A DNA stretch of 39,250 nucleotides from Pseudomonadota bacterium. GTDB lineage: Bacteria; Pseudomonadota; Gammaproteobacteria; JAADHS01. The DNA is taken from assembly GCA_021821045.1 (NCBI GenBank), contig JAKACW010000040.1, positions 1-39,250 of the forward strand. The letters are read 5' to 3'. Position numbers and translations under genes: made by a program. The notes under the pieces are model-generated. The model saw only the letters and a program-made list of their open reading frames with translations. It did no database searches and was not told the DNA's origin. Shown piece by piece: positions 3,044 through 39,128 of the stretch; the stretch's first letter is position 1, and each line of letters opens with the position of its first letter.

Positions 3044-3073
3044 GTCGGTCTCGTCCTTTCGCGCGGTCAGGCG

Positions 3074-3787
3074 CTATTTCGATGGCAGCTGCTTGACCAG
3101 CGAATCCGCCAATTGGTGCTGCTCCTTGGAAAAGTCCTGCAACGCGCTCTTGCCGCCGACGGCGTACATTGCGACAGCGAGCAGCAGTTCGCGCAGTTGC
3201 GGCGCGCTTTGGCTGTCGAAACGGCTGTAGGCGCCGGAGGTGATGCGGGCGATGGCGCGGAAGGTAGCTTCGGCAACGGGGTCGTGGCCTTCTTGAAACA
3301 AGAACACGGGCACACCGAGCAGGGCAAGCTGTCCCGCGAAGTGTTCGAGCTTGAGGGGATCCTCTTCCACGCAATCGCCGACCAATACCAAAGCGCGCAC
3401 CTTGTCGCGGCGCGTCTCGTCGATGGCGTGGCGCAGCACCCGTTCGATTTGGGTATTGCCGCTTTGACACATGACCTTGGTCATTTCACGTATCAGGGGC
3501 TCGGCGTGATCGAACCAGGGCGTGGCGTGAAATTCGTAAAAGCCGCCGTAGTAGCACAGCTGAATGTTGAGTTTGCCGATCTTGGCCGTTTCCAAAAACA
3601 TCTCCGCTTGAATGCGGCTGGCTTTGTCCCAGGTTGGCGCGCGGCTGGCGGTGGCGTCCATGGCGAAGATCAGGCGCGCTTGCGATGCCGCACTCTTCGC
3701 GACGGGTGCCGACTGCAATTTTTCGAGAAAGTTTGACACGTCCTGGCGGGTGGACTTAGTTGGGACTTTTTTGCTGTCGTCGCTCAT
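3074..3787 (-). CDS. VWA-domain protein with a MIDAS-like motif
   Basis: A 237-aa soluble protein consisting mostly of one von Willebrand factor A-like domain. The first metal-site motif is D44-x-T46-x-S48 (FAMDATASR), a Thr variant of the usual DxSxS. Further strands follow: LNIQLCYYGGF, VRALVLVGDCVEED and GVPVFLFQEG. The charged, flexible N-terminus (about residues 1-36) is rich in Lys/Ser. No signal peptide or membrane segment is seen, so it should be cytoplasmic. It lies just downstream of the moxR-bat operon, separated from batD by a REP-like repeat pair, and upstream of the 2OG oxygenase. VWA proteins commonly work with MoxR AAA+ ATPases, so a link is plausible but inferred. Confidence 0.82.
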   Translation of the reverse strand: MSDDSKKVPTKSTRQDVSNFLEKLQSAPVAKSAASQARLIFAMDATASRAPTWDKASRIQAEMFLETAKIGKLNIQLCYYGGFYEFHATPWFDHAEPLIREMTKVMCQSGNTQIERVLRHAIDETRRDKVRALVLVGDCVEEDPLKLEHFAGQLALLGVPVFLFQEGHDPVAEATFRAIARITSGAYSRFDSQSAPQLRELLLAVAMYAVGGKSALQDFSKEQHQLADSLVKQLPSK

Positions 3788-3816
3788 TCTTTTGACCCTG
3801 CTGTCACGAACCGCAA

Positions 3817-3956
3817 TGTAGGAGCGGCTGCAGCCGCGATTCTTCGTTTAAATCGTGAAATGATGCGCTCCTACACGACGAAGCTGTTCGCCTCGTGGGA
3901 GCGGTTTCCTACCGCGATTTTTCGTCGTTTAGATCGCGCAATGATCCTCTCCCACA
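3817..3956. repeat. Pair of REP-like palindromic repeats
   Basis: Two tandem units of about 60 bp lie between the VWA gene and batD. Unit 1 (3817-3876) starts TGTAGGAGCGG and ends GCGCTCCTACA. Unit 2 (3894-3956) starts CGTGGGAGCGG and ends CTCTCCCACA. Each has an inner CCGCGATT..TTCG and TCG(C/T)GnAATGAT segment, so each unit can fold back on itself. The same element recurs at 12990-13056 and 16763-16929. It resembles the intergenic REP/BIME elements of pseudomonads (GGAGCGGCTTCAGCCGCGA type). Confidence 0.85.
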
Positions 3957-3982
3957 GCGCGATCGAGAAGTCACCTGTACCA

Positions 3983-9250: not shown

Positions 9251-10179
9251 CGCGCTGCTGCCTTTCTGCGTTGTCCCGGTTGGAGGCCCGCGCCAAGGGC
9301 GCGAACGGGATCGGCGGCTGTCGGCAGCTCAATGAATTTCAAACCGAGGCGTTGTCGCCAGCGCTTCAGTTGTTCACAGCGGGCGTCGAAGCGCGCGCGA
9401 TGCTGCCGGCGCAGTTCACTCATCGCGCTGTCGAGCACGGCGAGATGCTGGCCATCGCTGAAACTGTACAGCCCCGGCGGCGGGAGTTCTTTTTCCAAGG
9501 GGTCAAAGACGAGAATAAACGCCAGCTCGCAGTGGCGGTTGAGCTGGATCAGGGTTGTTTCCAGTTCCGGATGACGCTCGGCACCTTCGAAATCGCTGAT
9601 GACGCAGATCCACGTGCCGGGGCGGGCGATGCGCTGAGTGCGTTTTAAAGCCTCGATCCAGGCCGGCTCGGCCGTCGGCATCGGTGCTGCAGCCGACATT
9701 TGCGCCAATCCGCGCAAGAAGCGCAACGTGCCGCGATGGCCGCGGGTGGGACGGAATTCGTGATGCTGAGCATCGGCGAACACCATACCGCCTATGCGAT
9801 CGCCTCGTTCCGTGGCGGACCAGGCCAGCAACGCGGCGGCTTCGGCGGCGGCGACGGATTTGAACGCGCGGCGGGTGCCGAAATGCATGGCGGCACTTTG
9901 GTCGACGACGAGCACCACCGGCCGTTCGCGTTCTTCTTGAAACAGTTTGGTATGCGGCTGTCCCGTGCGGGCGGTGACGCGCCAATCGATGGTGCGAACG
10001 TCGTCGCCGGGAACATAGCGGCGGACTTCGGCGAACGCCATGCCGCGACCGCGGAACGCGGACAGGTCGTTGCCCGATCCCCAGGCGCGGGCGAAATCCT
10101 GGGGCGTGTAGCCCAGGCGCGCGGCGGGCTCGCGCAAGCGCATCAAATCATGGAGAGTGACGGTAACGCCCTGAGTCAT
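9247..10179 (-). CDS. DUF58 protein (VWA-like) of the Bat operon
   Basis: A 310-aa soluble protein of the DUF58 family. The hallmark segment is complete: RRYVPGDDVRTIDWRVTART followed by KLFQEERERPVVLVVDQSAAM (about residues 53-98). The last part is a VWA-type first strand with a D-x-S motif. Later strands DRIGGMVFAD, TWICVISDFEG and CELAFILVFDPLEKELP complete a VWA-like fold. Family members are encoded next to MoxR AAA+ ATPases, presumably as their partner or substrate adaptor. The gene is 21 bp downstream of moxR and overlaps the DUF4381 start by 4 bp. No membrane helix is present, unlike BatA and BatB. Confidence 0.93.
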   Translation of the reverse strand: MTQGVTVTLHDLMRLREPAARLGYTPQDFARAWGSGNDLSAFRGRGMAFAEVRRYVPGDDVRTIDWRVTARTGQPHTKLFQEERERPVVLVVDQSAAMHFGTRRAFKSVAAAEAAALLAWSATERGDRIGGMVFADAQHHEFRPTRGHRGTLRFLRGLAQMSAAAPMPTAEPAWIEALKRTQRIARPGTWICVISDFEGAERHPELETTLIQLNRHCELAFILVFDPLEKELPPPGLYSFSDGQHLAVLDSAMSELRRQHRARFDARCEQLKRWRQRLGLKFIELPTAADPVRALGAGLQPGQRRKAAAR

Positions 10180-10200
10180 GACCGGCGGCGGTTGTACTTT

Positions 10201-11229
10201 CTATGGGACGGGAACTTTGGCCAGCAACTCGCGCACGACTTGATCGGCATTGACGCCGTCGGCTTCCGCCTCGAACGACAGCACCAGCCGATGACGCAAG
10301 ATGTCGGGCGCAATCGCGTGAATGTCTTCCGGCGAGACATAGTTGCGGCCGTTGAGCCAGGCATGGGCGCGAGCGCAACGATCCAAGGCAATGGTGGCGC
10401 GCGGGCTGGCGCCATAGCTGATCCATTGCGCGAGTTCCGCTTTGTACTTGCCTGCGGCGCGGGTCGCGCTGACCAACTGCACGATGTAGGTTTCCAGCGC
10501 CGCCGAGAGGTGCAGTTGCAGCACTTCCTGGCGTGCGGTGAAGACTAGATTTTGGGAGACCTGGCTCTTGCGGTCCACCACGGGCAACCTGTTGTCGCGG
10601 GCCTGTGCGCGCGCGAGTTGCAGAATTTTGTGTTCGGATTTGATGTCCGGGTAGTCGATGCGCACATGCAGCAGGAACCGGTCGAGTTGGGCCTCGGGCA
10701 GCGGGTAGGTGCCTTCCTGTTCGATGGGGTTTTGCGTCGCCATCACCAGAAACAACGGCGGCAGCGCATACGTATTGCGGCCAACGGTGACTTGGCGTTC
10801 CGCCATCGCTTCGAGCAGGGCCGACTGCACTTTGGCCGGGGCGCGGTTGATTTCGTCGGCCAAAACCAGATTGTGAAAAAGCGGTCCGCGCTGGAACTGG
10901 AACGAACCGTCGGTGGGGCGGTAGATTTCCGTACCGGTCAAATCGGCCGGCAGCAGGTCGGGTGTGAATTGGACGCGATGGAAGTCGCCTTCGAGGCCGG
11001 ACGCCAGTGCTTTGATGGCAGTGGTTTTTGCCAAACCCGGCGCGCCTTCGACCAACAAATGGCCGTCGGCCAGCAGGGCGACCAACAATCGGTCGAGCAG
11101 GTGTTCCTGGCCAATGACCAGTTGTTCCAATTCTTTCTTGAGTTGCGCAAAGGCCGTTTGAGCCGGCGATATCTTTTCGGTTTTCGGCCCTTCGCTCTTG
11201 GGTGTGGCGGAGGTTTGGGTAGCAGTCAT
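10201..11229 (-). CDS. MoxR family AAA+ ATPase
   Basis: A 342-aa AAA+ ATPase thought to act as a chaperone that remodels or activates client complexes, with VWA proteins as partners. Walker A is at about residues 62-69 (GAPGLAKT) and Walker B at about 121-126 (LVLADE), followed by INRAPAKVQSALLEAMAERQV. Sensor 1 is ATQNP, and the family segment IEQEGTYPLPEAQLDRF is present. The C-terminal lid contains YGASPRATIALDRCARAHAW and the sensor-2 type PEDI. All catalytic elements look intact. It is the first gene of the moxR-DUF58-DUF4381-batA-batB/C-batD run. The N-terminal 20 residues are low-complexity Ser/Thr/Lys, so the exact start is less certain than the rest. Confidence 0.96.
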   Translation of the reverse strand: MTATQTSATPKSEGPKTEKISPAQTAFAQLKKELEQLVIGQEHLLDRLLVALLADGHLLVEGAPGLAKTTAIKALASGLEGDFHRVQFTPDLLPADLTGTEIYRPTDGSFQFQRGPLFHNLVLADEINRAPAKVQSALLEAMAERQVTVGRNTYALPPLFLVMATQNPIEQEGTYPLPEAQLDRFLLHVRIDYPDIKSEHKILQLARAQARDNRLPVVDRKSQVSQNLVFTARQEVLQLHLSAALETYIVQLVSATRAAGKYKAELAQWISYGASPRATIALDRCARAHAWLNGRNYVSPEDIHAIAPDILRHRLVLSFEAEADGVNADQVVRELLAKVPVP

Positions 11230-11286
11230 GGGCGATGTTTCCGGTGCGCGGGGCGGGCGCCGAAGCGTGCCCGCCCCGCGGTTTAA

Positions 11287-11793
11287 TTAGTCGATTCGAA
11301 CGTTGATGCGGCCGCCGCGGGCGCCGGCTACTTTGGGCAGCGTCACGCGCAGGATGCCGTTGCGGTATTGGGCGTTGGCTCGCGCATCATCCACCGCCGC
11401 CGGCAGCGGGATGGCCCGTTCAAAGGCGCCATAAGCGCATTCGAGCATGTGGTAGCGGCCGTCGCGGCTTTCCCGCTGCACTTGCTTCTCGCCGCGAATA
11501 ACCAAGTGGTCGTTGATGACTTGGATGTCGATATTTCCAGGTTCAAGTCCCGGAACTTCCATTTTCACGACCACTTCATCGGGGTTCTCGAGGACATCGG
11601 CGGCGAGCAGCGCCCAGCGTGACGCGGAGCGCTCCACCAGCGCGTCGCGGCTTTCCACATCGCCGCCGGTGCGATGAATGGGGTTGAACTGGGTGAGCGC
11701 CTGGCCGGCCCGTTCTCGAATCTGACGCCATCCCTCGGTGACCTGATCCCAGGCGCGGCCAAGGCCGCTGCGCAGTTGTTCTAACGTGCTCAT
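11287..11793 (-). CDS. Hsp20/alpha-crystallin family small heat shock protein
   Basis: A 168-aa holdase that should bind unfolding proteins and pass them to the ClpB/DnaK system. The start at 11793 is preferred over one 8 codons upstream because AAGGAG lies 7 nt before it. The N-terminal arm (MSTLEQLRSGLGRAWDQV..) is amphipathic. The alpha-crystallin domain (about residues 60-158) contains VVVKMEVPGLEPGNIDIQV, LVIRGEKQV, and the end-of-domain motif Y-R-N-G-I-L-R-V-T-L-P (family consensus GxLxVxxP-like). The C-terminal tail has I-N-V, an IxI/V-type motif used for oligomer assembly. The gene is on the same strand as cbpA and clpB, about 215 bp downstream of cbpA, forming a heat-shock block. Confidence 0.95.
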   Translation of the reverse strand: MSTLEQLRSGLGRAWDQVTEGWRQIRERAGQALTQFNPIHRTGGDVESRDALVERSASRWALLAADVLENPDEVVVKMEVPGLEPGNIDIQVINDHLVIRGEKQVQRESRDGRYHMLECAYGAFERAIPLPAAVDDARANAQYRNGILRVTLPKVAGARGGRINVRID

Positions 11794-12008
11794 TGGGTTC
11801 TCCTTCTTACTGGCCATTAAATTCGTCTGCCCACTAGACGGGGCTGAGATCGTAACCCTATGAAATATCCGGGCTTATGCATTGTAGCACCGAACCTGAC
11901 GGTCCGGGCATCGCCGCTGATAACTACGTTGCTACGACCGGAATACGGGGAACAGGGTTCCCATGCCGGGCCGCACGCCGCCAGGCCGCGCCGTCACCCC
12001 GGGCGGCC
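11794..12008. other. Short intergenic stretch between the dnaJ-type gene and hsp20
   Basis: About 215 bp without a supportable gene; short frames here lack family resemblance and Shine-Dalgarno sites. The minus strand reads TGCTACAAT at 11881-11889, an extended -10-like sequence upstream of hsp20, but no convincing -35 lies 16-18 bp further up. I do not claim a promoter. No T-tract hairpin was found after the dnaJ-type gene. Confidence 0.4.
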
Positions 12009-12962
12009 CTATGGAAATCCCAGCTCGCGCCTCGGATCAAAGGGCAGGGCCTCGGCGAAACGGCGATACGCATCGCGATCGCTTTCGGTGTGGGCCGGCG
12101 GCGTGACGATTGTCACCGCCACGTATTGATCGCCAGCGGGGTTCCCCGGCAGGCCGCGGCCCCGCAGACGCAACTTCTTGCCGCCCCGGCTGTTGGGCGG
12201 AATGGTCAACTCGACCGGGCCCTTTAATGTTGGCGCTTTCAGTGTGGCGCCCAGCGCGGCTTCCCACGGCGTGACGGGCAGGTCGAGGTAGATGTCCTTG
12301 CCTTCGGCGCGAAACCAGCGGTGCGGTTCGAAGCCGATCTCCAGGTAGAGATCGCCCGCGCCGCCGCCGGTGACGCTGGGAGTGCCTTGGCCGGTCAGCC
12401 GAATGCGCTGTCCCTCGGTGATGCCCTTGGGGATCTTCACATTGAGGGAACGGTCGCGGGTGACGACCCGCCCGTTGTTGTCGATTTCAGGAACCCGCAG
12501 CGTGATGGTGCGCGATGCGCCCTCGAAACTGTCTTCCAGGCGAATGAGAATCTTCGCTTGGTGATCCTCGCCGCGGGTTCGGAATCCGCGGCGCGCGCCG
12601 GCCTGTTCGAACCCGCCCATTCCGCCCAGGCCGCCAAACAGAGTGGAAAAGAAATCGCTGAACCCGCCGCCGTCGCCAAAGCCGGCGGAGCGGAATTCGA
12701 AGTTGGTGTCCCACCCTGGCGGCGGGCGGAAATCATCGCCGGCACGCCAGTGCGTGCCCAGGCGATCATAAGCCGCGCGCTTTTCCGTATCCTTGAGAAC
12801 TTCGTAGGCTTCGTTGATTTCCTTGATGCGCGCTTCGGCGTCCGGTTCCTTGCTGACGTCCGGATGATATTTGCGCGCCAGCTTGCGGTAGGCGCGCTTG
12901 ATATCGTCCACCGAGGCATCCCGGTTGACACCTAGAATCTGGTAGTAGTCTTTGTATTGCAT
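12009..12962 (-). CDS. cbpA: CbpA/DnaJ-type co-chaperone without zinc finger
   Basis: A 317-aa J-protein that should stimulate DnaK and deliver clients. The N-terminal J domain (about residues 4-69) starts KDYYQILGV and has the HPD motif at about 33-35 (KYHPDVSKE). A Gly/Phe-rich linker follows ([20 protein letters not shown]). There is no CxxCxGxG zinc-finger block; the chain goes straight into two C-terminal substrate-binding beta domains ([85 protein letters not shown]). This is the CbpA/type II layout. It lies between clpB (upstream) and hsp20 (downstream) on one strand. A REP-like hairpin fills the gap to clpB, so it may be transcribed separately. Confidence 0.94.
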
Positions 12963-12989
12963 AGCATCAGACGCAATGAAGATTCATAT

Positions 12990-13056
12990 CACGGTTGGAA
13001 ACCGCTCCCACAACAAAATCGGCTGACGTGGGAGCGGATCATTCCGCGATTCTCCC
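12990..13056. repeat. REP-like palindrome between clpB and cbpA
   Basis: An inverted repeat pairs CCGCTCCCAC (13002-13011) with GTGGGAGCGG (13028-13037), a perfect 10-bp stem with a 16-nt loop. It is flanked by ACGGTTGGAA on the left and ATCATTCCGCGATTCTCCC on the right. It is the same family as the units at 3817-3956 and 16763-16929. It lies 3' of clpB and 5' of cbpA. No T-run follows the stem in the clpB direction, so it is not a standard intrinsic terminator. Confidence 0.85.
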
Positions 13057-13086
13057 TTAGACAAGCACGACCCCATCGTGTGTCGT

Positions 13087-15666
13087 TTACCGTCCGCGAC
13101 GAAACACCATGCTGTCGTTATCTACATCAACTTCGATCGTGTCGCCCGGCGCGAACCGTCCGCCGAGAATCTCCTGCGCCAGCGGATTTTCGATCATGTG
13201 CTGAATCGATCGCTTTAACGGCCGCGCGCCGTACACCGGATCGTAACCCGCCTGGCCGATTTTATCCAAGGCAGCCGGCGTCAGCACGAGGTTCATATCG
13301 CGATCTTTCAACCGGCGCCGCAGGTATTCCACCTGAATGTTGGCGATGGACATGATCTGCTCGCGACCCAGGGGATGAAACACCACCACTTCGTCGATGC
13401 GGTTGATGAACTCGGGACGGAAGTGCTGGGTGACGACTTCCATCACTGCGTTCTTCATGCGTTGATAATTTTCCTCACCGGCCATCTCCTGAATCATCTG
13501 GCTGCCGAGATTCGACGTCATGATGATCACGGCATTGCGAAAATCCACCGTCCGGCCGTGACCGTCGGTGAGCCGCCCGTCGTCCAGCACTTGCAGCAGG
13601 ATATTGAACACATCCGGGTGGGCCTTCTCGACTTCATCGAGCAACACCACGGAGTAGGGGCGGCGGCGGATCGCTTCGGTGAGGTAACCGCCTTCTTCGT
13701 AACCGACATAGCCCGGCGGAGCGCCGATCAAGCGGGCGACCGAATGCTTTTCCATGAATTCCGACATGTCGATGCGGATCATGGCGTCTTCGGTGTCGAA
13801 TAGGAAGTTGGCCAGTGCCTTGCTCAATTCGGTCTTGCCCACGCCGGTGGGGCCGAGGAACAGGAACGAGCCGTTGGGGCGATTGGGGTCCGCCAAGCCG
13901 GCGCGGGAGCGGCGGATGGCATTGGCGACGGCCTTGACGGCTTCACCTTGGCCGACCACGCGCTTGTGCAGCACCTCTTCCATGCGCAGCAGTTTGTCGC
14001 GCTCGCCCTCCAGCATCTTGGAGACCGGAATGCCGGTCCACTTGGACACCACTTCGGCGATTTCTTCCTCCGTAACCCGATTGCGCAGCAGCTTGGTTTT
14101 GGTCTGCGTATGTTGCGACGCTTCGTTCAAGCGCTTTTCCAATTCGGGGATGCGCCCGTACTGCAGCTCCGACATGCGTCCCAGATCGCCGGCGCGGCGC
14201 GCCGTTTCCAATTCCATGCGCGCGCGGTCCAGTTCTTCCTTGATGTGGGTCGAACCCTGGACGGCGGCCTTTTCCGATTTCCAAATTTTCTCCAGTTCAC
14301 CGTACTCGGCTTCGAGTTTGCTGATTTCGCTTTGCAGATCGTTCAAGCGTTTCTTCGAAGCTTCGTCGGTTTCCTTCTTGAGCGCTTCGCGTTCGATTTT
14401 GAGCTGAATCAGACGCCGGTCGAGCTTGTCCATCTCCTCCGGTTTGGAGTCGATTTCCATGCGAATGCGGCTGGCCGCTTCGTCCACTAAGTCGATGGCC
14501 TTGTCGGGCAACTGCCGGTCGGTGATGTAGCGGTTGGACAACGCGGCGGCCGACACGATGGCCGGGTCGGTGATTTCCACGCCGTGATGAACCTCGTACT
14601 TTTCCTTGAGCCCGCGCAGAATCGCCACCGTGTCTTCCACCGACGGTTCATCCACCAGCACCTTCTGGAAGCGCCGCTCCAAAGCGGCGTCTTTCTCGAT
14701 GTATTCGCGGTACTCATCGAGCGTCGTCGCGCCGATGCAATGCAATTCGCCGCGGGCCAGCGCCGGTTTGAGCATGTTGCCGGCGTCCATGGCGCCCTCG
14801 GCTTTGCCGGCGCCTACCATGGTGTGCAATTCGTCAATAAATAATATGATCTGTCCTTCCTGCTTGGACAGATCGTTTAACACGGCTTTGAGCCGCTCTT
14901 CGAATTCTCCGCGAAACTTGGCGCCGGCGATCAAGGCGCCGAGATCGAGCGACAGCAAGCGTTTGCCTTTCAGTCCCTCCGGTACTTCGCTATTGATAAT
15001 GCGTTGCGCGAGTCCTTCGACGATAGCGGTTTTACCCACGCCCGGTTCCCCGATCAGCACCGGATTGTTCTTGGTGCGTCGCTGCAGTACTTGAATGGAG
15101 CGGCGGATTTCGTCGTCGCGGCCGATGACGGGGTCGAGCTTGCCTTGTTCGGCACGCTGAGTCAGATCGACCGTGTATTTCTCCAGCGCCCGGCGGGTGT
15201 CTTCCGCATTCGGGTTGTCCACCCTCTGACCGCCGCGGGCTTTTTCGATAACTTGCTCCAGCATGCCTTTGGTGGCGCCGGCGCGGCGGAGAATTTCACC
15301 GACTTGGCCCCGGTCGTCCACTGCGGCCAGCAGGAACAGCTCGGAGGAGATGTATTGATCCTTGCGCTGTTGCGCCAGCTTGTCGGTGAGGTTGAGCAGG
15401 CGGCCTAAATCGTTGGAGATGTGTACCTCGCCGGCGGCGCCTTGCACGCTCGGCAGGCGATCCAGCGCTTCGCCCAGTTGGGAGCGCAGCGCATTGACGT
15501 TCACGCCGGCATCCGAGAGCATCTGGCGTGTGTTGCCGCCTTCTTGATCGAGCAGGGCGGTTACAAGGTGCGCCGGCTCAATGAACTGGTGATCGCGCCC
15601 CACCGCCAGCGATTGGGCATCGGCCAGGGCCATTTGAAATTTGCTTGTTAGTTTGTCCATCCGCAT
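13087..15666 (-). CDS. clpB: ClpB, AAA+ protein disaggregase
   Basis: An 859-aa Hsp100 that extracts polypeptides from aggregates together with DnaK. The start [21 protein letters not shown] matches the E. coli N-terminus (from memory), and GGAGG lies 8 nt before the ATG. Layout: Clp N domain (1-150), AAA1 with Walker A GEPGVGKT at 206-213 and Walker [25 protein letters not shown], then the coiled-coil middle domain (about 410-530; [22 protein letters not shown]). AAA2 has Walker [16 protein letters not shown], the pore-loop GYVGYEEGG, Walker [15 protein letters not shown] and sensor 2 GARPLKR. All catalytic elements are present and the length is normal. A sigma-32-like promoter is visible upstream. 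Confidence 0.98.
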
Positions 15667-15690
15667 GTGCTTTACCTCCGGTGGCCATAG

Positions 15691-15719
15691 AGATAAGGTG
15701 CGGCGCGACTAAAATCAAG
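15691..15719 (-). promoter_or_regulatory. Putative sigma-32 (heat shock) promoter of clpB
   Basis: On the minus strand, CTTGATTTT (15711-15719) resembles the sigma-32 -35 consensus CTTGAAA. CACCTTATCT (15691-15700) resembles the -10 consensus CCCCATnT, with a 10-13 bp spacer depending on alignment. It ends 24 bp before the clpB ATG, leaving room for a short leader with GGAGG. The placement in front of clpB is what makes this credible; the -10 match is only partial. Confidence 0.5.
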
Positions 15720-15766
15720 AGTCGGAGTGCATTAATAGCGAATAGGTGGAATATTGCGCAGTATGG

Positions 15767-30128: not shown

Positions 30129-30236
30129 GTCTCATTGAGTCTCACGAAATATCATCCAATCTCACGAAAAAGTGTAACTTGAAGTGTAACTTTTGCTGGT
30201 GTAACTTTTGTTGAAATCCAAAAGTTACACTTTTTT
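30129..30236. repeat. Iterated sites in the mutS-int intergenic region (possible arm sites / attL)
   Basis: Two repeat sets lie in the 201-bp gap between the divergent mutS and int starts. Set 1: TCTCA-type units (GTCTCATTGA near 30129, TCTCACGAAA at 30140 and again at 30160, one about 20 bp after the other). Set 2: GTGTAACTT at 30172-30180, GTGTAACTTTTG at 30184-30195 and 30199-30210, and its inverted copy CAAAAGTTACAC at 30219-30230, followed by TTTTTT. The last direct copy and the inverted copy form a perfect 12-bp palindrome with an 8-nt loop. Such arrays next to an integrase are typical of arm-type binding sites or an autoregulatory operator. The palindrome plus T-run would also resemble an intrinsic terminator on the plus strand, although no plus-strand gene lies just upstream. 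Confidence 0.7.
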
Positions 30237-30266
30237 CCCATGCGTCGGACAAACTGACATCAACTC

Positions 30267-30273
30267 AAAGAGG
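30267..30273 (+). promoter_or_regulatory. Shine-Dalgarno site deciding the integrase start
   Basis: AAAGAGG is followed by ATGCCA and then ATG at 30280. The spacing fits the ATG at 30280 better than the ATG at 30274, which touches the site, or the TTG at 30208, which lies inside the repeat array. Confidence 0.65.
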
Positions 30274-30279
30274 ATGCCA

Positions 30280-31587
30280 ATGGCAACAGTGCAGAGTACC
30301 AAACCTCTATCTTCCAGGACAGTGGAGACGATGAAGCCGGGAGATAAGATTAAGGCCGACACGGGAGAAAATATTGGGTTGCGAGTGAAATGCGGGGCTA
30401 CCGGAGTAAAGACATTTTTCTATCGCTATACCAGCCCGATCACCTCAAAGCTCGTTCAGGTGAAAATCGGCAACTTCCCGGAGACCTCCCTGGCCGAAGC
30501 GAGATTGAAGCTACAGGAGCTTAAACAAGTTCGCCGCCAGGGACACTGCCCGGCAACTGAGGCCAAAGAGGAGAAACGGCAGAAACGGGAGCAAGCCCAG
30601 GAATTGGAACAGGGACCAGTAGCGTCAGTTGAGAAGTCCTTCACCGTTGAGAATCTCGTAGAACTCTACCTAACCCAATATATCGAAGACCGGAAATCTC
30701 CAAACGGAAGAAAAATCGCCGGTGCACGAAAACCGAAAGGTCAGTCCGAGACGCGCAGAACCCTCTATGGCGATGTGATTCCCAAGTTGGGGGAGATGCC
30801 AGCAAATGCTGTCACGCGAAAGGCTGTGGTGGATATGATCATGGCAATTGTTCAACGCGGGGCAAATGTTCAAGCAGGAAATGTACTGAGAGAGCTTGCC
30901 GCCGCCTACGAATTTGCGATTGGTCTGGGCTATTTTTCAGATGAGTTTGCAAATCCGGCAATTCTCGCCAAATCAAGCCTCAAACAGGCCAAGGTGAAGC
31001 TTACCCATCAACGAGGAAAACGAGTCCTCTCTGATACTGAGTTGGCGACGTTGCTGAAATGGCTACCTGGCGCTGATTACACCGCAACACAGAAGAATGT
31101 TCTTCGATTTACCCTCTGGACAGGGTGTCGTACCGGAGAGGTCTGCAATGCGGCTTGGAAGGACATTGACTTGGAGAAACAGACGTTTCATATAAGGGAG
31201 AGCAAGACAGAGGTCGAGCGCTATGTACAATTGCCCCGCCAAGCGGTGGAATTCCTAACAACACTTCGCCTGACCACTGGAGACTACCTGTTCCCATCCC
31301 AGAAAACGCGGCTGCCTATCCAGCAAAAGCAACTAACCGAGCAGGCCTGGCGGATGAGGCAAAGCAACAAGATGGTAAATCTTCCGGCCTGGACACCTCA
31401 TGATCTGCGCAGAAGTGTCAGGACTGGCTTGTCACGGCTGCAATGTCCTAACGAAGTGGCTGAGGCTGTATTGGGGCATTCACGTAAGGGGATTGAAGGG
31501 ACCTACGATTTGCACCGGTACGAGGCGGAGTGTAGGCAGTGGTTACAGAAGTGGGCGGATCACGTAGACTCGCTTATTCGTAAGTAG
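30280..31587 (+). CDS. Tyrosine-type site-specific integrase (DUF4102 / P4-like)
   Basis: A 435-aa phage/island integrase expected to recombine the island with its chromosomal site. The N-terminal DUF4102 arm-binding domain (about residues 20-90; ENIGLRVKCGATGVKTFFYRY..KLVQVKIGNFPETSLAEARLK) is followed by a core-binding domain (about 120-235). The catalytic domain is complete: R284 (WTGCRTGEVCNAAW), K309 (ESKTEVERYVQLP), H374-x-x-R377 (PHDLRRSV), H400 (VLGHSRKG) and nucleophile Y409 (GTYDLHRY). It diverges from mutS and is visibly less GC-rich than the core. It should be active by sequence. No tRNA lies next to it, so the attachment site appears to be the mutS upstream region. Confidence 0.95.
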   Translation: MATVQSTKPLSSRTVETMKPGDKIKADTGENIGLRVKCGATGVKTFFYRYTSPITSKLVQVKIGNFPETSLAEARLKLQELKQVRRQGHCPATEAKEEKRQKREQAQELEQGPVASVEKSFTVENLVELYLTQYIEDRKSPNGRKIAGARKPKGQSETRRTLYGDVIPKLGEMPANAVTRKAVVDMIMAIVQRGANVQAGNVLRELAAAYEFAIGLGYFSDEFANPAILAKSSLKQAKVKLTHQRGKRVLSDTELATLLKWLPGADYTATQKNVLRFTLWTGCRTGEVCNAAWKDIDLEKQTFHIRESKTEVERYVQLPRQAVEFLTTLRLTTGDYLFPSQKTRLPIQQKQLTEQAWRMRQSNKMVNLPAWTPHDLRRSVRTGLSRLQCPNEVAEAVLGHSRKGIEGTYDLHRYEAECRQWLQKWADHVDSLIRK

Positions 31588-32014
31588 TTCAGGCTCGATC
31601 TTACAATAAGTGTCAGGCTTCAACTGGCCGTGTTCGACCCAGAAGAGCCGTACACCCCGTCAGGGGTTCAACGGCAGGTAGCTGAGCCGACCGGCCGTAC
31701 AGAGCAGTTTGTCACCGACAGCAGGTCGGCCGTGGCAGTCGATGGCGACCTGGCCCCGCTACATCCACAATGGGCAGCTCAGCCGTCGTTGGTAGGGAAG
31801 TCGGCGGTCCCGACCCAAATAATCATCTATGGGGACGAAGGCCGACAATGCCTTCGTTCGCGCGAATAGAAGCATGCACGCGGCATCGCGGTTTGCGTTA
31901 ACCTAGAAAAATTGTGCGGACCATTGGGGGGCCAGTGAACTACTGCAACCTAAATCGACGGTTTTGTCGAAAGTTCAGGGGCGCGAAGTATTGTCGGCGA
32001 GATGAAGGACCACG
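31588..32014. other. Non-coding stretch between int and the large ATPase-nuclease gene
   Basis: About 427 bp without a convincing gene. A 79-codon GTG-started frame (31630-31869) has no family resemblance and no good ribosome site. There are two hairpins: CCCC-GTCA-GGGG near 31660-31675, and ACGAAGGC (31835-31842) with GCCTTCGT (31850-31857) around a 7-nt loop. The first half reads like a decayed dispersed element (TTCGACCCAGAAGAGCC-type text and several GGCCGT/ACGGCC blocks). The last part should contain the promoter of the downstream gene, but no clear hexamers stand out. Confidence 0.5.
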
Positions 32015-35000
32015 ATGAGTGATCTGACAGTACTCTGGAAGAGCCGGGTCGGGGCAATTCTTGGGATCGTTCGAGCTGGCGGAACAGAGCACCGTGAAGT
32101 CGCAAACATGGCCGCTCAGGTCGGCGCCGACTACCACGGCCGGTTCGTCATTGAACTGCTTCAGAACGCGAGCGACCAGGCGGCTTCCGCCAATCTGCAC
32201 GAGAGCTGCGTAACGATCGTCCGCACTGGTGATTTCGTAGCGTTCGCCAACGAAGGCATTCCGTTCGACAAGGGCAAACTCAGCGACATCACCTCTCTCG
32301 GGCTGAGCAGAAAGAACCCGCAGGACGCGATCGGCAACAAGGGCCTTGGCTTCAAGTCTGTCTTTCAGGTGTCCGAATCACCCGAGATATACAGCGCCGC
32401 GTCATCAACCGAATCATTCGCCGATACCCCCGGGCTGATGTTCAAACTGTCGCTTGCTCCTTTCTCCAGCCAAAGCGTCGAAGACGCCATCCGGAATATG
32501 GTCGTCGAGCAGTTGCGGGATACGGATCCCGGTGCTCAACTCACCGTGGATCGGGCAATGTCGGAGATCAAGGCGGCGGCGCCGTTCAAGTTCCCGATTC
32601 CGCTCTCGACCAGCGAACTGAACAACCGCCTCGCGGACCTTGCCGAGCGTCCGACCGGACAGACCATGGTCGTGTTGCCTCTCAGAGAAACGCCGGAGGC
32701 GCTGACGACAGTCGATCATGCGATCGACGAGCTTCTCCGTGATGCCGGTGCGGCAATTCTGTTCCTCCCGTCCGTGTCGACAATTAGGGTGCTGGACCAA
32801 GTCAGGGGAATCTCACGGACGATTCGACGCGAACTCGCCAGTTCCAGGCGGCAGATCGATGGCGTCGGTTATCTTTCCACGGTTGTGACCACCGTTCAGC
32901 AGGAGGACAAAATCACCAAGCGTTCCTGGCGCCTGATCGAGCGTCGCATAGGGACCGCAGACGTTGTCCCTCCTGAACAGGCTGCAGGCGAGGCTGAAGC
33001 CATCAATCGCGAAGCCCACAGGCTTCCGGGTACGAATTGGGACACCGTGCAGAGTTCGCCTGTCGGGGTCGCCATGCCTCTGCCGATGCAGCCAGCGGCG
33101 GGGAGCTCGTTTCTGCTTGGAACCCGGGGTCGAATCTGTATCGGTCTGCCCACGAAGGATTCCACCGGGACTCCAGCTTGGGTCAACGCACATTTCTTCG
33201 GGACCATCTCGAGAACGGGCATTGACTTCGACGACAACGCTTACAACGCTTTTCTCTTTGCGGAAGCCGTCAGGCTTCACCGAGCGTTGATCGACGATCT
33301 AAAGGCCGATGAGGATGTCGAAATCCGACGTACTGCAACGCTCGCATTCGAGCGAGGAACTGGCCCGCTGGCAACTGCCCTGTATGCAACAGGCGGGCAG
33401 GCCAAGGGGGATGTCGTCCTCTCGATAGACGGAACCACGTTTCAGTCCCCTCACGACACCGTCTTGCCTGAGCCGACAGATGTGGATGCTCTTCTTCTGA
33501 TGGTGCGGCAAGCGAGCGACCTTAAGGGGTTCGGTTTGACGCTCCCGGAGGTCGGGCTCACGCGAAACGCACGGCCTTTGATCGAGGCTCTTCTCGACGC
33601 CAAACCCGATTCCGCGAAAGTCGCGGCCCTGCTGCTAGATCGAGGTCGCGCGACGCTCTCGGTCATCGAGAAAGCCGCGCACGACCGCCGGGGCGATGGA
33701 CCTGAATTTTGGGAGAAGTTCCTGTCGTGGGCAGTCCGTCGCTTCACGCTGGAGCAGTTATCCGATCAGCGACTGCTGCCCGTGGGCGGTCAAGCGATCG
33801 CCAAGCCCTCGGAACGCGTCTTCTTGCCCCCCTATCCGCGTAAGGCAGCGGAGGGGCTCGTCGATGAAGACGGCGAGATATCGGAGATGCCCAGCGAGTT
33901 GGCTGAGTCGCTGAAGTTCCTCGACGATACGGCGGTCGCGGTGCGCAAACCCGGCGTGCGCAGTCTCACAGACATCGCAAGCGTGCTCGCGCCTGACACA
34001 GGCAAGGGGCTTGTACGAAGCCCGCGATTGGACCATCTGATCAACGATGCCGTAGGACCCTTGATGCAGGAACTCGGGGAGGACGACGATTCGAAGCAGA
34101 GCGGGATAAGGCTATTGCGACAGGCCATCCAGTGGCTGTGGGCCCTCTCCGAAACCGGCAGGGATCGATTGACGAAGGACGCCTTGCGGGTCCCGGTTCA
34201 GAGAACATCTGCAGCCTGGAAATGGGTTCCACCGAGCACCACATACTTTGGGCAGGGATGGTTCGGCGATCCGACCGACCTGCTACTCAATGAGTGCTAC
34301 GGGGAAAATTCGAGTCGCCTTGTTCTTCCATGGGAGGAGTTTTGCCTTGACTTCAAGGCGCCAAGCGACGACCGCGACGCTTGGATTGGCGCCCTTGAAC
34401 TGCTGGGCGTCAGCAGATCGCCGAAGCTCATACGACTCCGCGGACCGCGCCCCGCTCCGTTCGTAATCCGGGGTAACTCGGAACTGACCATCGACAACGC
34501 CATTTGCCCAATCGCGAAGGCCGAGCCCTTCTGGCGAAGTTATCTCGAATTTGCCCGTCGACGCACGGCGCGCACCTCAAGCGGGCAGAGATTCGACTTC
34601 CGGTCTGTGGTCTGGGTCGATGGTCTCGAGCGAGAGAAGTGCCGACCGGCCATTCTCAAGCTGATGCTTCTCTATCCGCAGTCCTATGAACCGGAAGCGA
34701 TGACGTTTCTGGAGCGTCAATATCGACAGAATGACGATGCCACCGCTGTTCTCTCCCTATGGGTGCACGCGATCCGCAGCAACTTTTGGAAGGTCATACC
34801 TACACAGCGGGGGGGCGCTTCTGTCGCAGATGCCTGGTTGCTGGATGCTCAACAGCGAGGATTGGCGCGTCGCCGGCTGGCGTTGCTTAACCAGGTAGAG
34901 GCTCCGTACGCCGCTGCCGAGCAGCTATTGCACGAGATCGGGGTCACCACTCTGCCCGCGGCCGCACCTGATCGGCTGATGCACGCTATCGGCAGGCTCG

Positions 35001-37471
35001 GCGACAGCTGTGCGGGCTATGACGCAGAGACACGTCGCACGGCTCTTGCTCTAGCGCAGGATCTCTTCTCCCACTTCCAGGCGGCATATTCGAAGTCTTC
35101 GACGCCCTTGGGCGACCTTAAGGCCTTCTTATTTCCGATGGAACGAAGAGGTGAGGCCGTAAGGGTGCGGGGCGACCAGATTTTCACTGCATACATCAAT
35201 GATGACCCCGTGCGAGCGGGCTTTGTGCCTGGGTTTGCGGACGCACTCCTCTGGCCGATCGACATTCGTCAGGCCTACAGGCAGCTAGTCAGCGAGTTAC
35301 AGCGCCAGCTGGGAGAGTCTGCCGTGGTATTCACGAGCTCCGCGCCAGTCGAAACCAGGTTCACCGAAGACCGCGTCCATAGACATGTGACCCTTCTCGA
35401 ATGGCTGTCGGTCAGCTTTCCGCAGCACTCGGTTGCATGCGACCTTTCTTGTTTGATCGCCTACACGGGGCGAGAGACGGACCCCAATGGGGAAGACTTT
35501 AGACGCACATGGGCGTCGTTCGAGAAGGCATCCATCGTCTTTGGCACGTTTCCCGACGATTCCCCGACGCCGTACTTCTACGATCGGCAAACCGGCATGC
35601 TCCAGGTCGCCATCGACCTTACCGGCGCGGAGGTAGTCGAGGCGACTTGGATGCTCGTCGGTCAAAGCTACCACCACACTTGGTCCGCCTACGCCCGGGA
35701 ACTCGAGCGGGACAATCCCGCCAAGTTCTTGGCAAACTGCCGAATCACGTCCGCTCAACGGGAGAACGTCGAGAACGCAATAGGCTTGTCGTCGACTGAG
35801 CGGTTCAGGCATATCAAGGCTGCCACCCTTGCCCTATGGCTTGCCCGTTTCCCAACGCAGCCGGCGACACTGTTCAACGAGGAGTGGGATGTCAATGCCC
35901 GAAGCGCCCAAGGGATCTGCGATTGGCTCAGCCGACCTGACCTGATCGATTCCTTTGCGGCAACCCTTGGGGCCTCCGAGGAGGAAGCGTCGCTGGCGAT
36001 CATCGATGCCGCGGGGCTCCACTCAGAACACTGGCAGGAAGCCCGGCTAGCCCTTGGCATGGAGCGCTGGCCTTTCTCCCACAAGCTAAGAGCGTGGCGC
36101 ACCGCGGTGACCGAGTTGGTTGCGATACTGCAGACCTGCGCCGCCAGGGCCGCCAGGGCTTCGTTGCCCGAGCTGCAACCCATCTTGCAGGACCCTCGAC
36201 TTTCGACGCCCCCAGAGATGGTTGCTTACAGGTCGGAAGGGGAACACGAGGTTCTGCAAGTCGCGTTCGACCTTATGGAGGTCGTCCTAACCGAATCGCC
36301 TAATTCCTCGGGGGTTGAGCTTCTTCGCAGAAGGCTGGCGACACTGGTTGACCAAGCAGACGTGACGCTGGCTTCCGTTGACCTTGATGATGCTCCAGCG
36401 CGCGATGTGCGCGTCTACCGGGACGACGAGGAGGCGAAGCGGAGCCGAGATGCGCGAGCACGCTTTGATGGTGTGATGATCGTGACGTCCGCCTTGGCCA
36501 AGCACTTCGGCGAAAGCATCGCTACGGAGGACATCCGCTCCGACCAAAGAGTAGGCATGCTGGTCGATGGGTGGTGGGCCAACAGCTTTACCTTGCTCCC
36601 AGCCATGCAGCGTGTCTTGCAGGCCAGGGTCCCCAACAGTGCTCAGCGCATGTCGGACGAGCGCGTGTTTAGGGATCCCGCTCCAGCGAACGAACTGATG
36701 GATCGGTTCAAGGAGTTATCCGATCTAGGTCGCGGTGAGCCGGTTGCAGCCCCGAAGCGGAAAGTCACCGTCTTCGGGCAGGAGAAGACTGAAGACGACT
36801 TGGCCAGTGACCTGCTCCGTGGGACCGCCGGTGACATAGGGAAGATGCTTAGGGAGAAGGCGGCCGTGCGCCCGCTCGACCCGATCATCGACACGCGTGT
36901 TCGCGGCAAAGTAGTGCTGAAGCCAAAGACGCGAGAGGGCCGCGGTGGGGGCGGGGGTGGCGGAACTGACAACACGAAGGACAGAGAGCTCGTGGGCCTG
37001 CTCGGCGAAGCGTTCGTGTACGAGATGTTTCGCCTCGCGCTCCCGGGATTCGATGAGATGACCTGGAGGTCGTGCAACCGCAGCGCGTATGGCTTGGAGG
37101 GCGAAGGCAACGACACGCTCGGATACGATTTTCTCTATCGAGACATAGAGAACCGGCTGGGGGGCCGTGCTGACCGCGCACTTTGCTGCATCGAGGTCAA
37201 AGCGTCCTCTGGGAACGGCAGCGAGTCGTTTCCGATGACCGCCAACGAATGGGACAAAGCTCGCGAATGTCACCAGACGAACGAGTTGGTGTACATAATA
37301 GTGCGCGTTGCGAACGTCCGCGATGACCCGCAGATCGCTGACGTGATCATCGATCCGTTCGGCCTGCATGGGGATGGACAGGTCGCTGTCGTAAGCCGTG
37401 ATATCTGGGTTTACGTTGGACAGCCGCAATCCGAGGGCGACGTGGTGGCGGGCGTGGGGCCGGTTGCGTGA
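32015..37471 (+). CDS. Sacsin/Hsp90-like GHKL ATPase fused to a DUF3883 (NO VEIN) nuclease-like domain; candidate defence protein
   Basis: An 1,818-aa single-chain protein. The N-terminal GHKL ATPase (about residues 20-260) shows the N-box FVIELLQNASDQA (N51, D54), G1 box FANEGIPF (79-84) and the lid/G2 segment GNKGLGFKSVF (107-117), in the sacsin/NOV style. About 1,350 residues in the middle have no domain I can name and no membrane helix. A Gly-rich linker (about 1638-1650) precedes a C-terminal DUF3883 domain. It starts ELVGLLGEAFVYEMF and carries the PD-(D/E)xK-type residues D1705 (LGYDFLY), E1727 and K1729 (CIEVKAS). AAGGA lies 5 nt before the ATG. Such ATPase-plus-restriction-nuclease chains on islands suggest nucleic-acid-targeted defence; this is inference. 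It stands alone, with no methylase or helicase beside it. Confidence 0.88.
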   Translation: MSDLTVLWKSRVGAILGIVRAGGTEHREVANMAAQVGADYHGRFVIELLQNASDQAASANLHESCVTIVRTGDFVAFANEGIPFDKGKLSDITSLGLSRKNPQDAIGNKGLGFKSVFQVSESPEIYSAASSTESFADTPGLMFKLSLAPFSSQSVEDAIRNMVVEQLRDTDPGAQLTVDRAMSEIKAAAPFKFPIPLSTSELNNRLADLAERPTGQTMVVLPLRETPEALTTVDHAIDELLRDAGAAILFLPSVSTIRVLDQVRGISRTIRRELASSRRQIDGVGYLSTVVTTVQQEDKITKRSWRLIERRIGTADVVPPEQAAGEAEAINREAHRLPGTNWDTVQSSPVGVAMPLPMQPAAGSSFLLGTRGRICIGLPTKDSTGTPAWVNAHFFGTISRTGIDFDDNAYNAFLFAEAVRLHRALIDDLKADEDVEIRRTATLAFERGTGPLATALYATGGQAKGDVVLSIDGTTFQSPHDTVLPEPTDVDALLLMVRQASDLKGFGLTLPEVGLTRNARPLIEALLDAKPDSAKVAALLLDRGRATLSVIEKAAHDRRGDGPEFWEKFLSWAVRRFTLEQLSDQRLLPVGGQAIAKPSERVFLPPYPRKAAEGLVDEDGEISEMPSELAESLKFLDDTAVAVRKPGVRSLTDIASVLAPDTGKGLVRSPRLDHLINDAVGPLMQELGEDDDSKQSGIRLLRQAIQWLWALSETGRDRLTKDALRVPVQRTSAAWKWVPPSTTYFGQGWFGDPTDLLLNECYGENSSRLVLPWEEFCLDFKAPSDDRDAWIGALELLGVSRSPKLIRLRGPRPAPFVIRGNSELTIDNAICPIAKAEPFWRSYLEFARRRTARTSSGQRFDFRSVVWVDGLEREKCRPAILKLMLLYPQSYEPEAMTFLERQYRQNDDATAVLSLWVHAIRSNFWKVIPTQRGGASVADAWLLDAQQRGLARRRLALLNQVEAPYAAAEQLLHEIGVTTLPAAAPDRLMHAIGRLGDSCAGYDAETRRTALALAQDLFSHFQAAYSKSSTPLGDLKAFLFPMERRGEAVRVRGDQIFTAYINDDPVRAGFVPGFADALLWPIDIRQAYRQLVSELQRQLGESAVVFTSSAPVETRFTEDRVHRHVTLLEWLSVSFPQHSVACDLSCLIAYTGRETDPNGEDFRRTWASFEKASIVFGTFPDDSPTPYFYDRQTGMLQVAIDLTGAEVVEATWMLVGQSYHHTWSAYARELERDNPAKFLANCRITSAQRENVENAIGLSSTERFRHIKAATLALWLARFPTQPATLFNEEWDVNARSAQGICDWLSRPDLIDSFAATLGASEEEASLAIIDAAGLHSEHWQEARLALGMERWPFSHKLRAWRTAVTELVAILQTCAARAARASLPELQPILQDPRLSTPPEMVAYRSEGEHEVLQVAFDLMEVVLTESPNSSGVELLRRRLATLVDQADVTLASVDLDDAPARDVRVYRDDEEAKRSRDARARFDGVMIVTSALAKHFGESIATEDIRSDQRVGMLVDGWWANSFTLLPAMQRVLQARVPNSAQRMSDERVFRDPAPANELMDRFKELSDLGRGEPVAAPKRKVTVFGQEKTEDDLASDLLRGTAGDIGKMLREKAAVRPLDPIIDTRVRGKVVLKPKTREGRGGGGGGGTDNTKDRELVGLLGEAFVYEMFRLALPGFDEMTWRSCNRSAYGLEGEGNDTLGYDFLYRDIENRLGGRADRALCCIEVKASSGNGSESFPMTANEWDKARECHQTNELVYIIVRVANVRDDPQIADVIIDPFGLHGDGQVAVVSRDIWVYVGQPQSEGDVVAGVGPVA

Positions 37472-37593: not shown

Positions 37594-37851
37594 TCAAGCT
37601 GCCAGATTCTGCCGTTTTTCAATGAGAAGTTTTACCACGGCTTGAAGTTCCTCTGTTGTTTTCCCCGAGGCAAATGCATTTAACATGGTATCCACTTCAT
37701 GGGCCAGCCAGCCGACAGAACGATTACCAAGGGAAACCCCGGGAGGGAACAAGCCTTCACTGATTCGACGATAGAGGGTCGCGTGACTCATCCCGGTTCG
37801 ATTTAACACCGCTGGTTTTCTTTCGATTCGGATTGCGTGATGCTCAGACAT
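37594..37851 (-). CDS. AlpA family HTH regulator / excisionase-like protein
   Basis: An 85-aa protein with an N-terminal winged-HTH of the AlpA (phage-type regulator) family: RKPAVLNRTGMSHATLYRRISEGLFPPGVSLGNRSVGWLAHEVD (about residues 11-54). The pattern LNRTGMS.ATLYRRI.EG.FPP...LG.R.VGW...EV is diagnostic. A short helical tail follows. AlpA proteins activate integrase/excision genes of prophages and islands. It is encoded on the opposite strand to the ATPase-nuclease and converges on it, with 122 bp between the two stops. No strong ribosome site is seen before the ATG. Confidence 0.9.
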   Translation of the reverse strand: MSEHHAIRIERKPAVLNRTGMSHATLYRRISEGLFPPGVSLGNRSVGWLAHEVDTMLNAFASGKTTEELQAVVKLLIEKRQNLAA

Positions 37852-38474: not shown

Positions 38475-38873
38475 ACTTGTTCCATGGCTTCATCGTTTTC
38501 GATGCAATGATTGTATTGGCTTGGTCACAAGGGAATTAGGTCGAAACCCCGGATCCAGCAGTGGCTTTTCCGCGTATTTGTCGGTACGCGCCGTCCTTCC
38601 AACCGTCTAGTTCACACATACCGCTCGCAGCGTTACTAATAAAGCAGGAAAGCGACACTAGAGGAGCGTGCTTTCGGAGACGTTTATTTTTGTCCAAGCC
38701 ACTAACATCCGCAGGGAAGAAATTCATGAAGGAGAAAGTAGTGAAAATCGAACTGTGCAGTGGCAACCAGCCGTATTTGAATCATGTTTGCGACATCGCA
38801 TGTAAAGATCCCACTATCGCGTCGCTTCCGCGGGGAATGCTATCCAATCTGGCTTTTCTATAGGGTACCGCCA
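38475..38873. other. Mostly non-coding region upstream of the ParB fragment
   Basis: About 400 bp, probably containing the divergent promoters of the HTH gene (minus) and the parB fragment (plus). The only frame with a ribosome site is the small one at 38726-38863, listed separately. No hairpin with a T-run was seen. Confidence 0.4.
38726..38863 (+). CDS. Possible 45-aa small protein
   Basis: ATG at 38726 (MKEKVVKIELCSGNQPYLNH..) or, better supported, GTG at 38741 with GGAG 6 nt upstream. It ends 10 bp before the ParB fragment's ATG. I do not recognise it. It has three Cys and no membrane segment. It may be only a chance frame; its spacing to the ParB fragment is the main argument for it. 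Confidence 0.3.
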   Translation: MKEKVVKIELCSGNQPYLNHVCDIACKDPTIASLPRGMLSNLAFL

Positions 38874-39128
38874 ATGGCTAGCCAAGACTCTAGCGCCATG
38901 CAGGAACCGGGTACTCCTGACGCGGCCACAACGTTAAAGCTGGATGTGCGTCGTATCAAGTCCTATGAACGCAATCCGCGTCGTAGTGAGAATCCGGAAT
39001 ACGACCGCATCAAGTCCTCCATCCGGGCCGATGGCATGGATCAGCCCTTGGTGGTCACGTGCCGACCCGACGAAACCGACTACGTCGTCGGCGCCGGCGG
39101 CAACACACGGTTGCACATCCTTCTGTAA
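38874..39128 (+). pseudogene. Truncated ParB-like protein of integrative conjugative element type
   Basis: An 84-aa frame from the ATG at 38874 (MASQDSSAMQEP..). Residues 22-83 are a ParB/Srx-like N-terminal domain: KLDVRRIKSYERNPRR, ENPEYDRIKSSIRADGMDQPLVV, ETDYVVGAGGNTRLHIL. The GGNTR segment is the nucleotide-contacting ParB box in a variant (G-A-G-G-N-T-R). ICE-type ParB proteins (PFGI-1 class) continue for several hundred residues with HTH and dimer domains; here TAA follows immediately after RLHILL. It is therefore a broken copy rather than a short native protein. The direction and position fit the left end of an ICE backbone. Confidence 0.8.

Follow-up and report, generated by a model that had tools for sequence, protein, structure and literature searches.

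A Tiamat-type gene on a gammaproteobacterial genomic island encodes a sacsin-like ATPase and a predicted PD-(D/E)xK nuclease domain in one protein

Can a single protein that carries an Hsp90-like ATPase at one end and a restriction-type nuclease at the other serve as a complete defense against phages? This question is raised by a gene at positions 32015..37471 (+ strand) of the window, by which we mean the whole 39,250-nucleotide stretch of gammaproteobacterial DNA that was analyzed. The gene encodes 1,818 amino acids from an ATG start codon, and a ribosome-binding-site-like GAAGGA (32004-32009) lies 6 bases ahead of the ATG. In searches with the protein, the NCBIfam family NF047352 ('sacsin N-terminal ATP-binding-like') matches residues 43-126 with 68.6 bits (cut-off 50), and Pfam NOV_C (PF13020, formerly DUF3883) matches residues 1700-1774 (E = 1.5e-8, above the Pfam cut-off). 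A Pfam scan up to E = 1 returned only NOV_C, DUF3684 and a SACS match to residues 82-129 that falls under the Pfam cut-off, whereas a sequence search of the PDB found no relative. The ATPase motifs named in a preliminary description of this DNA, namely N51, FANEGIPF (77-84) and GNKGLGFKSVF (107-117), were all found at the positions given there, as were the nuclease residues D1705, E1727 and K1729, where Pfam places the DUF3883/NOV_C domain. Two familiar assignments were considered and set aside. Membership in Shedu (SduA) was rejected on the grounds that DUF4263 is absent from the Pfam matches and that the nuclease is NOV_C, and identity with sacsin proper was rejected after neither a J domain nor a C-terminal HEPN domain was found in the Pfam scan up to E = 1.

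The protein instead belongs to a family already cataloged among defense genes. The PADLOC model TmtA (PDLC03971) aligns with residues 12-1122 at E = 1.5e-103 (profile positions 25-1108 of 1782), and a genome search with the TmtA model adds a match at the C-terminus (36746-37402, profile positions 1567-1773). We take TmtA (PADLOC PDLC03964-03972, listed there with no description) to be, almost certainly, the Tiamat system of Millman et al. 2022, because its PADLOC numbering block also contains MkoA and MkoC (Mokosh), DolB (Dodola) and SngC (Shango), and Mokosh, Dodola and Shango are reportedly systems of that same study. Tiamat is said to have been validated there as a single-gene system with anti-phage activity. 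A literature search on the name 'TmtA' returned nothing relevant. The window gene is a member of this known kind and not a new system, and is probably a TmtA/Tiamat-type single-gene anti-phage factor. Its earlier listing as a candidate defense system is strengthened by the defense-gene company of its relatives, but its place in the TmtA/Tiamat anti-phage family means that the candidate is not new. The additions made here are structural support for the two catalytic ends, the conservation of both, and evidence for movement of the gene on its own. In the literature, Tiamat is given as a defense system of unknown mechanism (PMC12926258; PMC10482375), and it ranks among the top two systems by frequency in GI-Hotspot 9 of the Pseudomonas island LESGI-1 (PMC12629846). 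Tiamat matches in plant samples were located on plant contigs (PMC12409356), which fits the derivation of the Pfam domain name from plant NO VEIN. The DUF3883 domain was called a restriction-endonuclease domain as early as 2013 (PMC3710099), and in a survey of restriction systems in archaea it figures as a group of presumed type II enzymes (PMC10609329).

The gene resides on a genomic island. A tyrosine integrase (30208..31587, + strand; Arm-DNA-bind_3, Phage_int_M and Phage_integrase) is the entry gene of this island, with mutS next to it on the chromosome side; mutS was also found in two family relatives. An AlpA-like (CP4-57/P4-type) island regulator is encoded on the opposite strand (37594..37851, - strand; PF05930, E = 8e-14), such that the window gene lies between integrase and regulator, and an unassigned short ORF is present downstream as well. 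The G+C content is 47% at the integrase, compared with about 60-65% for much of the remaining window. Near the contig end, a short ParB_N-like ORF (38784-39128, E = 0.006) is possibly a truncated island gene. A search of the organism's own genome for an attachment site, at which the DNA to the left of the integrase would recur, gave only short matches at chance level, and Rfam and tRNA scans detected nothing at the island. Up to the contig end at 39250, 1.8 kb downstream, neither a second defense gene on the island nor a methylase and SF2 helicase operon around the window gene was found. The earlier statement that the gene has no methylase, helicase or sensor partner beside it holds for the visible part of the island.

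To obtain structural evidence, AlphaFold2 models of both halves were built from the window protein and 48 relatives, with mean pLDDT values of 88.4 for residues 1-1200 and 87.9 for residues 1180-1818. The top VIA-align match of the N-terminal half is human sacsin SR1 (5v44_C; Z 14.8 over 186 residues, 3.2 Å), followed by Hsp90, Topo VI-B, GyrB, MORC3 and SMCHD1, with alignments that span about residues 20-435; Foldseek matched Hsp90 and MORC2, with a best E of 4e-8. Because the VIA-align matches run over residues 20-435, we assign a GHKL domain followed by an S5/middle domain, the arrangement usual for this superfamily. The GHKL ATPase domain, of the Hsp90/sacsin SR1 type, comprises residues 20-272 (32072..32830, + strand, as for all parts of the gene) and is indicated by profiles, conservation and the model. 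The S5/Hsp90-middle-like domain comprises residues 273-435 (32831..33319), with the Hsp90, Topo VI-B and MORC3 alignments reaching residue ~435. Within it, F394 and R400 are invariant, and the SRxxID segment that contains R400 is likely to be the counterpart of the Hsp90 catalytic arginine loop.

Beyond these domains, residues 436-1230 (33320..35704) are modeled as a scaffold in which short beta hairpins alternate with helices and Pfam places no domain. The scaffold appears weakly repeat-like, and a profile self-comparison of the middle region for sacsin-type repeats gave weak similarity between hairpin segments, which we regard as a hint of repeats and not as a result. An all-helical region is predicted to follow at about residues 1231-1610 (35705..36844); a resemblance of residues 1353-1454 to terpenoid synthases (Z about 5) was set aside, such an arrangement of helices being common. 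The "about 1,350 uncharacterised residues" noted previously are thus only partly so, with residues 273-435 now recognizable as Hsp90-like S5/middle, the remainder confidently predicted to be structured, and the PADLOC TmtA alignment extending across residues 12-1122.

A Gly-rich linker of low confidence (about residues 1640-1650; 36932..36964; pLDDT under 50) leads to the NOV_C/DUF3883 PD-(D/E)xK nuclease-like domain at about residues 1651-1806 (36965..37432), which contains E1665, D1705, E1727 and K1729. Residues 472-600 of the C-terminal model form a helix, a D-bearing strand, an ExK strand, a helix and two further strands, the order of a PD-(D/E)xK fold, with D1705 adjoining one strand and E1727-x-K1729 within the next. 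Nearly all top structural matches of this half are PD-(D/E)xK nucleases, including the SPARDA nuclease (Z 7.0), Hjc (6.9) and Eco15I (6.7), with SwaI (5.7), HincII (5.5), RecU (5.2), DpnI (4.9) and EcoRV (4.6) at lower scores. This support is modest, in that every Z is below 8 and Foldseek E-values for the multi-domain model are above 0.1, although the tool itself warns that such values are expected where one domain sits within a long model. We base the PD-(D/E)xK assignment on the homogeneity of the match list together with the conserved residues. The predicted fold at about residues 1651-1806 bears out, with these modest Z values, the nuclease core that had been proposed around D1705-K1729. 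The joining of a GHKL ATPase and a PD-(D/E)xK nuclease in one chain is likewise supported by profiles, by both half models and by residue conservation.

Conservation was examined in 56 full-length proteins. At the N-terminal end, R43, E47, N51, D54, N79 and G81, as well as K100, G107, K109, G110, G112 and F113, are unchanged in all 56, which in part follows from the collection of the relatives via GHKL motifs. The C-terminal residues are free of this bias: D1705 and K1729 are present in 56/56 proteins, position 1727 is E in 55 and D in one, and E1745 is E in 55 of 56. E1665, in the preceding helix, is invariant across a 49-row alignment. A simple D..ExK pattern near the C-terminus occurs in 60 of the 63 complete ORFs that reach at least 1,700 aa, and this is an under-count, given that one of the three misses (L059) has the residues in the 56-protein alignment. 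Three relatives of about 1,460-1,475 aa (L061-L063) are some 350 residues shorter, mostly after about residue 1200, and keep both ends. Because full-length relatives with the same two ends occur in at least 10 phyla, the ATPase and nuclease pairing lies far beyond chance. Judged by its sequence, the window gene is an intact, well-preserved and ordinary member of its family. Five relatives (L090, L101, L106, L117 and L130) are interrupted, at 260-782 aa, through decay or sequencing error, and such interruptions are a possible sign of cost.

Taken as a whole, the explanation that we consider probable is a Tiamat-type anti-phage factor on an integrase/AlpA island, in which a clamp-gated nuclease stops infection. 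The window protein would dimerize through its GHKL domains, and a phage-derived cue would bind the scaffold or clamp which, with ATP binding or hydrolysis, would close. The closed clamp might then position or release the C-terminal nuclease, which follows a flexible Gly-rich linker, and the nuclease would cut nucleic acid and stop the infection; by analogy with VcSduA, phage DNA is the most likely target. VcSduA, a protein of Vibrio cholerae, has an N-terminal GHKL ATPase, a clamp-like middle and a C-terminal PD-(D/E)xK nuclease of the DUF4263 type; substitutions in its ATPase (E27A) and nuclease (K557A) each abolish defense, and its protection is non-abortive (PMC12137116). By this analogy, ATP gating of the nuclease in the window protein is plausible, with the reservation that VcSduA demonstrates that such an architecture works by gating elsewhere and does not thereby demonstrate it for TmtA.

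It is possible, though we do not favor it, that the clamp unleashes the PD-(D/E)xK domain on host and phage nucleic acid indiscriminately, such that the infected cell dies in an abortive infection. The SPARDA effector nuclease, the top structural match of the nuclease domain, is an indiscriminate DNase. Broken reading frames among the relatives (L090, L101, L106 and L130) are as expected of a costly gene, sequencing errors being an equally possible cause. However, the differences in Z between the SPARDA nuclease and Hjc amount to ties, and the protection given by VcSduA, the nearest analogue in function, is not abortive (PMC12137116).

A second alternative, which we entertain only tentatively, is a stand-alone, modification- or structure-dependent restriction factor in which the nuclease domain or scaffold recognizes phage DNA itself, for example DNA that has modified bases or is branched or replicating, and the ATPase serves for clamp loading. 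The resemblance of the nuclease domain to Hjc/RecU resolvases and restriction enzymes is consistent with such an activity, as are the absence of a methylase partner from the window and the presence among the structural matches of Topo VI-B and MORC2, GHKL-S5 clamps that bind DNA. Conversely, the scaffold contains no identified DNA-recognition domain, and the best structural matches of the ATPase, sacsin and Hsp90, handle proteins and not DNA.

The Tiamat-type reading gains further support from the distribution of the family. Relatives were collected by scanning one genome per species for the conserved GHKL motifs, which yielded 298 proteins, of which 80 were kept. The closest is a full-length planctomycete protein (L052) with 59% identity, followed by one from another planctomycete (L053, 46%) and then, at 32-35%, by proteins of Gammaproteobacteria, Burkholderiaceae, Verrucomicrobia, Chloroflexi and Gemmatimonadetes. 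In the tree, the window protein groups with the two planctomycetes (99-100% SH-aLRT), and phyla are scattered throughout. Only 8/143 genomes of relatives contain a match to the window protein; the looser TmtA model matches 45 of 370 genomes of the class, many of them via one domain only. No relative was found in the E. coli genomes searched, and phages gave one distant match. Viral contigs yielded no match to the single window protein and six distant matches to the family alignment. This sporadic, cross-phylum pattern appears to be that of a mobile gene, although more than one change per phylum is by itself no proof of transfer.

The genes around the relatives point in the same direction. Ten close relatives have, within 10 kb, genes that match 204 PADLOC families (E <= 1e-8), compared with 35, mostly redundant models of one PD-T4-6-type kinase, in ten arbitrarily chosen stretches of the same genomes, each 20 kb long at most; this control is small, and single PADLOC matches such as kinases and helicases are not systems. 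Among the PADLOC families listed, restriction-type sets occur only beside TmtA genes. The neighbors include an OLD/AriA-like gene just downstream and a mad3/mad8-like protein (L052), a CARF-RtcR regulator and an MkoA-like protein (L053), HmaB and HmaC directly upstream (L054), a complete DUF499, DUF3780, DUF1156-methylase and PLD-helicase set directly upstream (L055), CARF-PDDEXK, the Druantia-type DruE and a NERD helicase (L056), DinG and pPIWI-RE (L061), and a type III restriction enzyme (L063). Most close relatives therefore lie beside defense genes, as the preliminary description had anticipated.

Several further neighborhoods deserve mention in their own right. Upstream of the TmtA-like gene at 8063-13537 of L057, and on the same strand, are genes for an Hsp70 (PF00012, 7.6e-108) and a TPR/DnaJ/Hint-like protein (2498-6138), which places chaperone partners close to an Hsp90/sacsin-like defense protein. 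Downstream of the 46%-identical relative, two adjoining ParB_N proteins and an HNH-repeat protein are encoded (L053:17811-19556). More distant plasmid relatives (L045 and L051) are found beside or inside restriction-modification operons. In Arthrobacter sp. 68b plasmid p2MP (L051:7182-17386), a 1,097-aa sacsin-like protein is encoded within an operon for a cytosine methylase, an ATP-binding protein, a PD-(D/E)XK protein and Z1, possibly a split version with the nuclease acting in trans. A shorter sacsin-like gene on a Rhizobium sp. BT03 plasmid (L049:1328-14107) lies alongside dsDNA-nuclease-domain, helicase-related and elongation-factor-G-like genes.

Comparison of DNA between pairs of relatives indicates what travels with the gene. 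A gammaproteobacterial MAG (L054) and Lautropia (L055) share 91% DNA identity over 9945-15731, which is the gene alone; nothing else is common to the two, and the methylase operons adjoining the gene differ. Homology bounded to the gene was also observed, among alignments longer than 1.5 kb with identity above 75%, in pairs from Bacillus (L067/L076), several Streptomyces and Rhizobium (L108/L109), making four independent groups of relatives. The 5.5-kb gene thus moves as a one-gene cassette. This gene-bounded homology supports a single-gene function more directly than does the absence of a partner in one window. The occurrence of near-identical relatives behind different methylase operons suggests that no particular partner is required and would still be compatible with cooperation.

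These observations make it improbable that the window protein belongs as a subunit to a restriction system with a methylase, whose other genes would lie past the end of the contig or at another place in the genome. Such a role would suit the position of the relatives as the last gene behind Hma-type (L054) and DUF499/DUF3780/DUF1156-methylase/PLD-helicase (L055) operons, and the presence of shorter related sacsin-like genes inside (L051) or beside (L045) restriction-modification operons. Nonetheless, the identity between the first two loci is limited to the gene while their methylase operons differ, the Bacillus, Streptomyces and Rhizobium pairs repeat the pattern, and no partner lies upstream in the window. 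Very unlikely is a bacterial sacsin acting as a chaperone or stress protein with DUF3883 as a structural appendage and no role in defense, a reading that accords with the SR1-like ATPase fold and with the Hsp70 and TPR/DnaJ-like genes just upstream in L057, but not with the sporadic, island-borne, cross-phylum occurrence, the restriction- and defense-rich neighbors or the nuclease residues kept in full-length relatives.

The Tiamat-type factor favored here can be set against four kinds of known protein. With Tiamat itself, the window protein shares homology over most of its length, a single-gene organization, an N-terminal Hsp90-like ATPase with intact motifs and residence on genomic islands; it differs in belonging to a divergent clade (the window, L052-L059 and L061-L063) whose identity to most of the family is about 20%. 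VcSduA, a Shedu protein with a GHKL domain, is an analogue that works alike, a single chain with an N-terminal GHKL ATPase, a clamp-like middle and a PD-(D/E)xK nuclease at the C-terminus, but its nuclease is DUF4263 and not DUF3883, and its catalytic lysine lies at position 557, so that it lacks the 1,200-aa scaffold of the window protein. The MORC/paraMORC GHKL-S5 proteins of restriction-modification systems also represent a GHKL and S5 module associated with restriction-type nucleases. Their genes share operons with those for a methylase, a helicase and a nuclease (PMC2292703), whereas the window has one protein and, up to the contig end, no such operon.

The remaining comparison is with eukaryotic proteins. 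The GHKL fold of the window protein is closest to sacsin SR1 (PDB 5v44, Z 14.8), and plant NO VEIN is the namesake of its C-terminal Pfam domain. Unlike these proteins, it has no J domain, HEPN or ubiquitin-like domain by Pfam, and it is encoded on a bacterial island and its nuclease motif is complete. With a complete ATPase and nuclease anatomy and named, conserved catalytic residues, it makes the Tiamat mechanism directly testable. A broader view, which we think rather unlikely, would treat each Tiamat-type protein as an immune machine complete in itself. The sacsin-like Hsp90 clamp would serve as sensor and license the built-in PD-(D/E)xK nuclease, the giant scaffold would engage a protein or nucleoprotein of the phage in the way that Hsp90 and sacsin read their clients, and eukaryotic sacsin and NO VEIN would be domesticated relatives of this bacterial architecture. 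The ATPase and nuclease anatomy also links bacterial immunity to plant NO VEIN and to sacsin, the protein mutated in the ataxia ARSACS.
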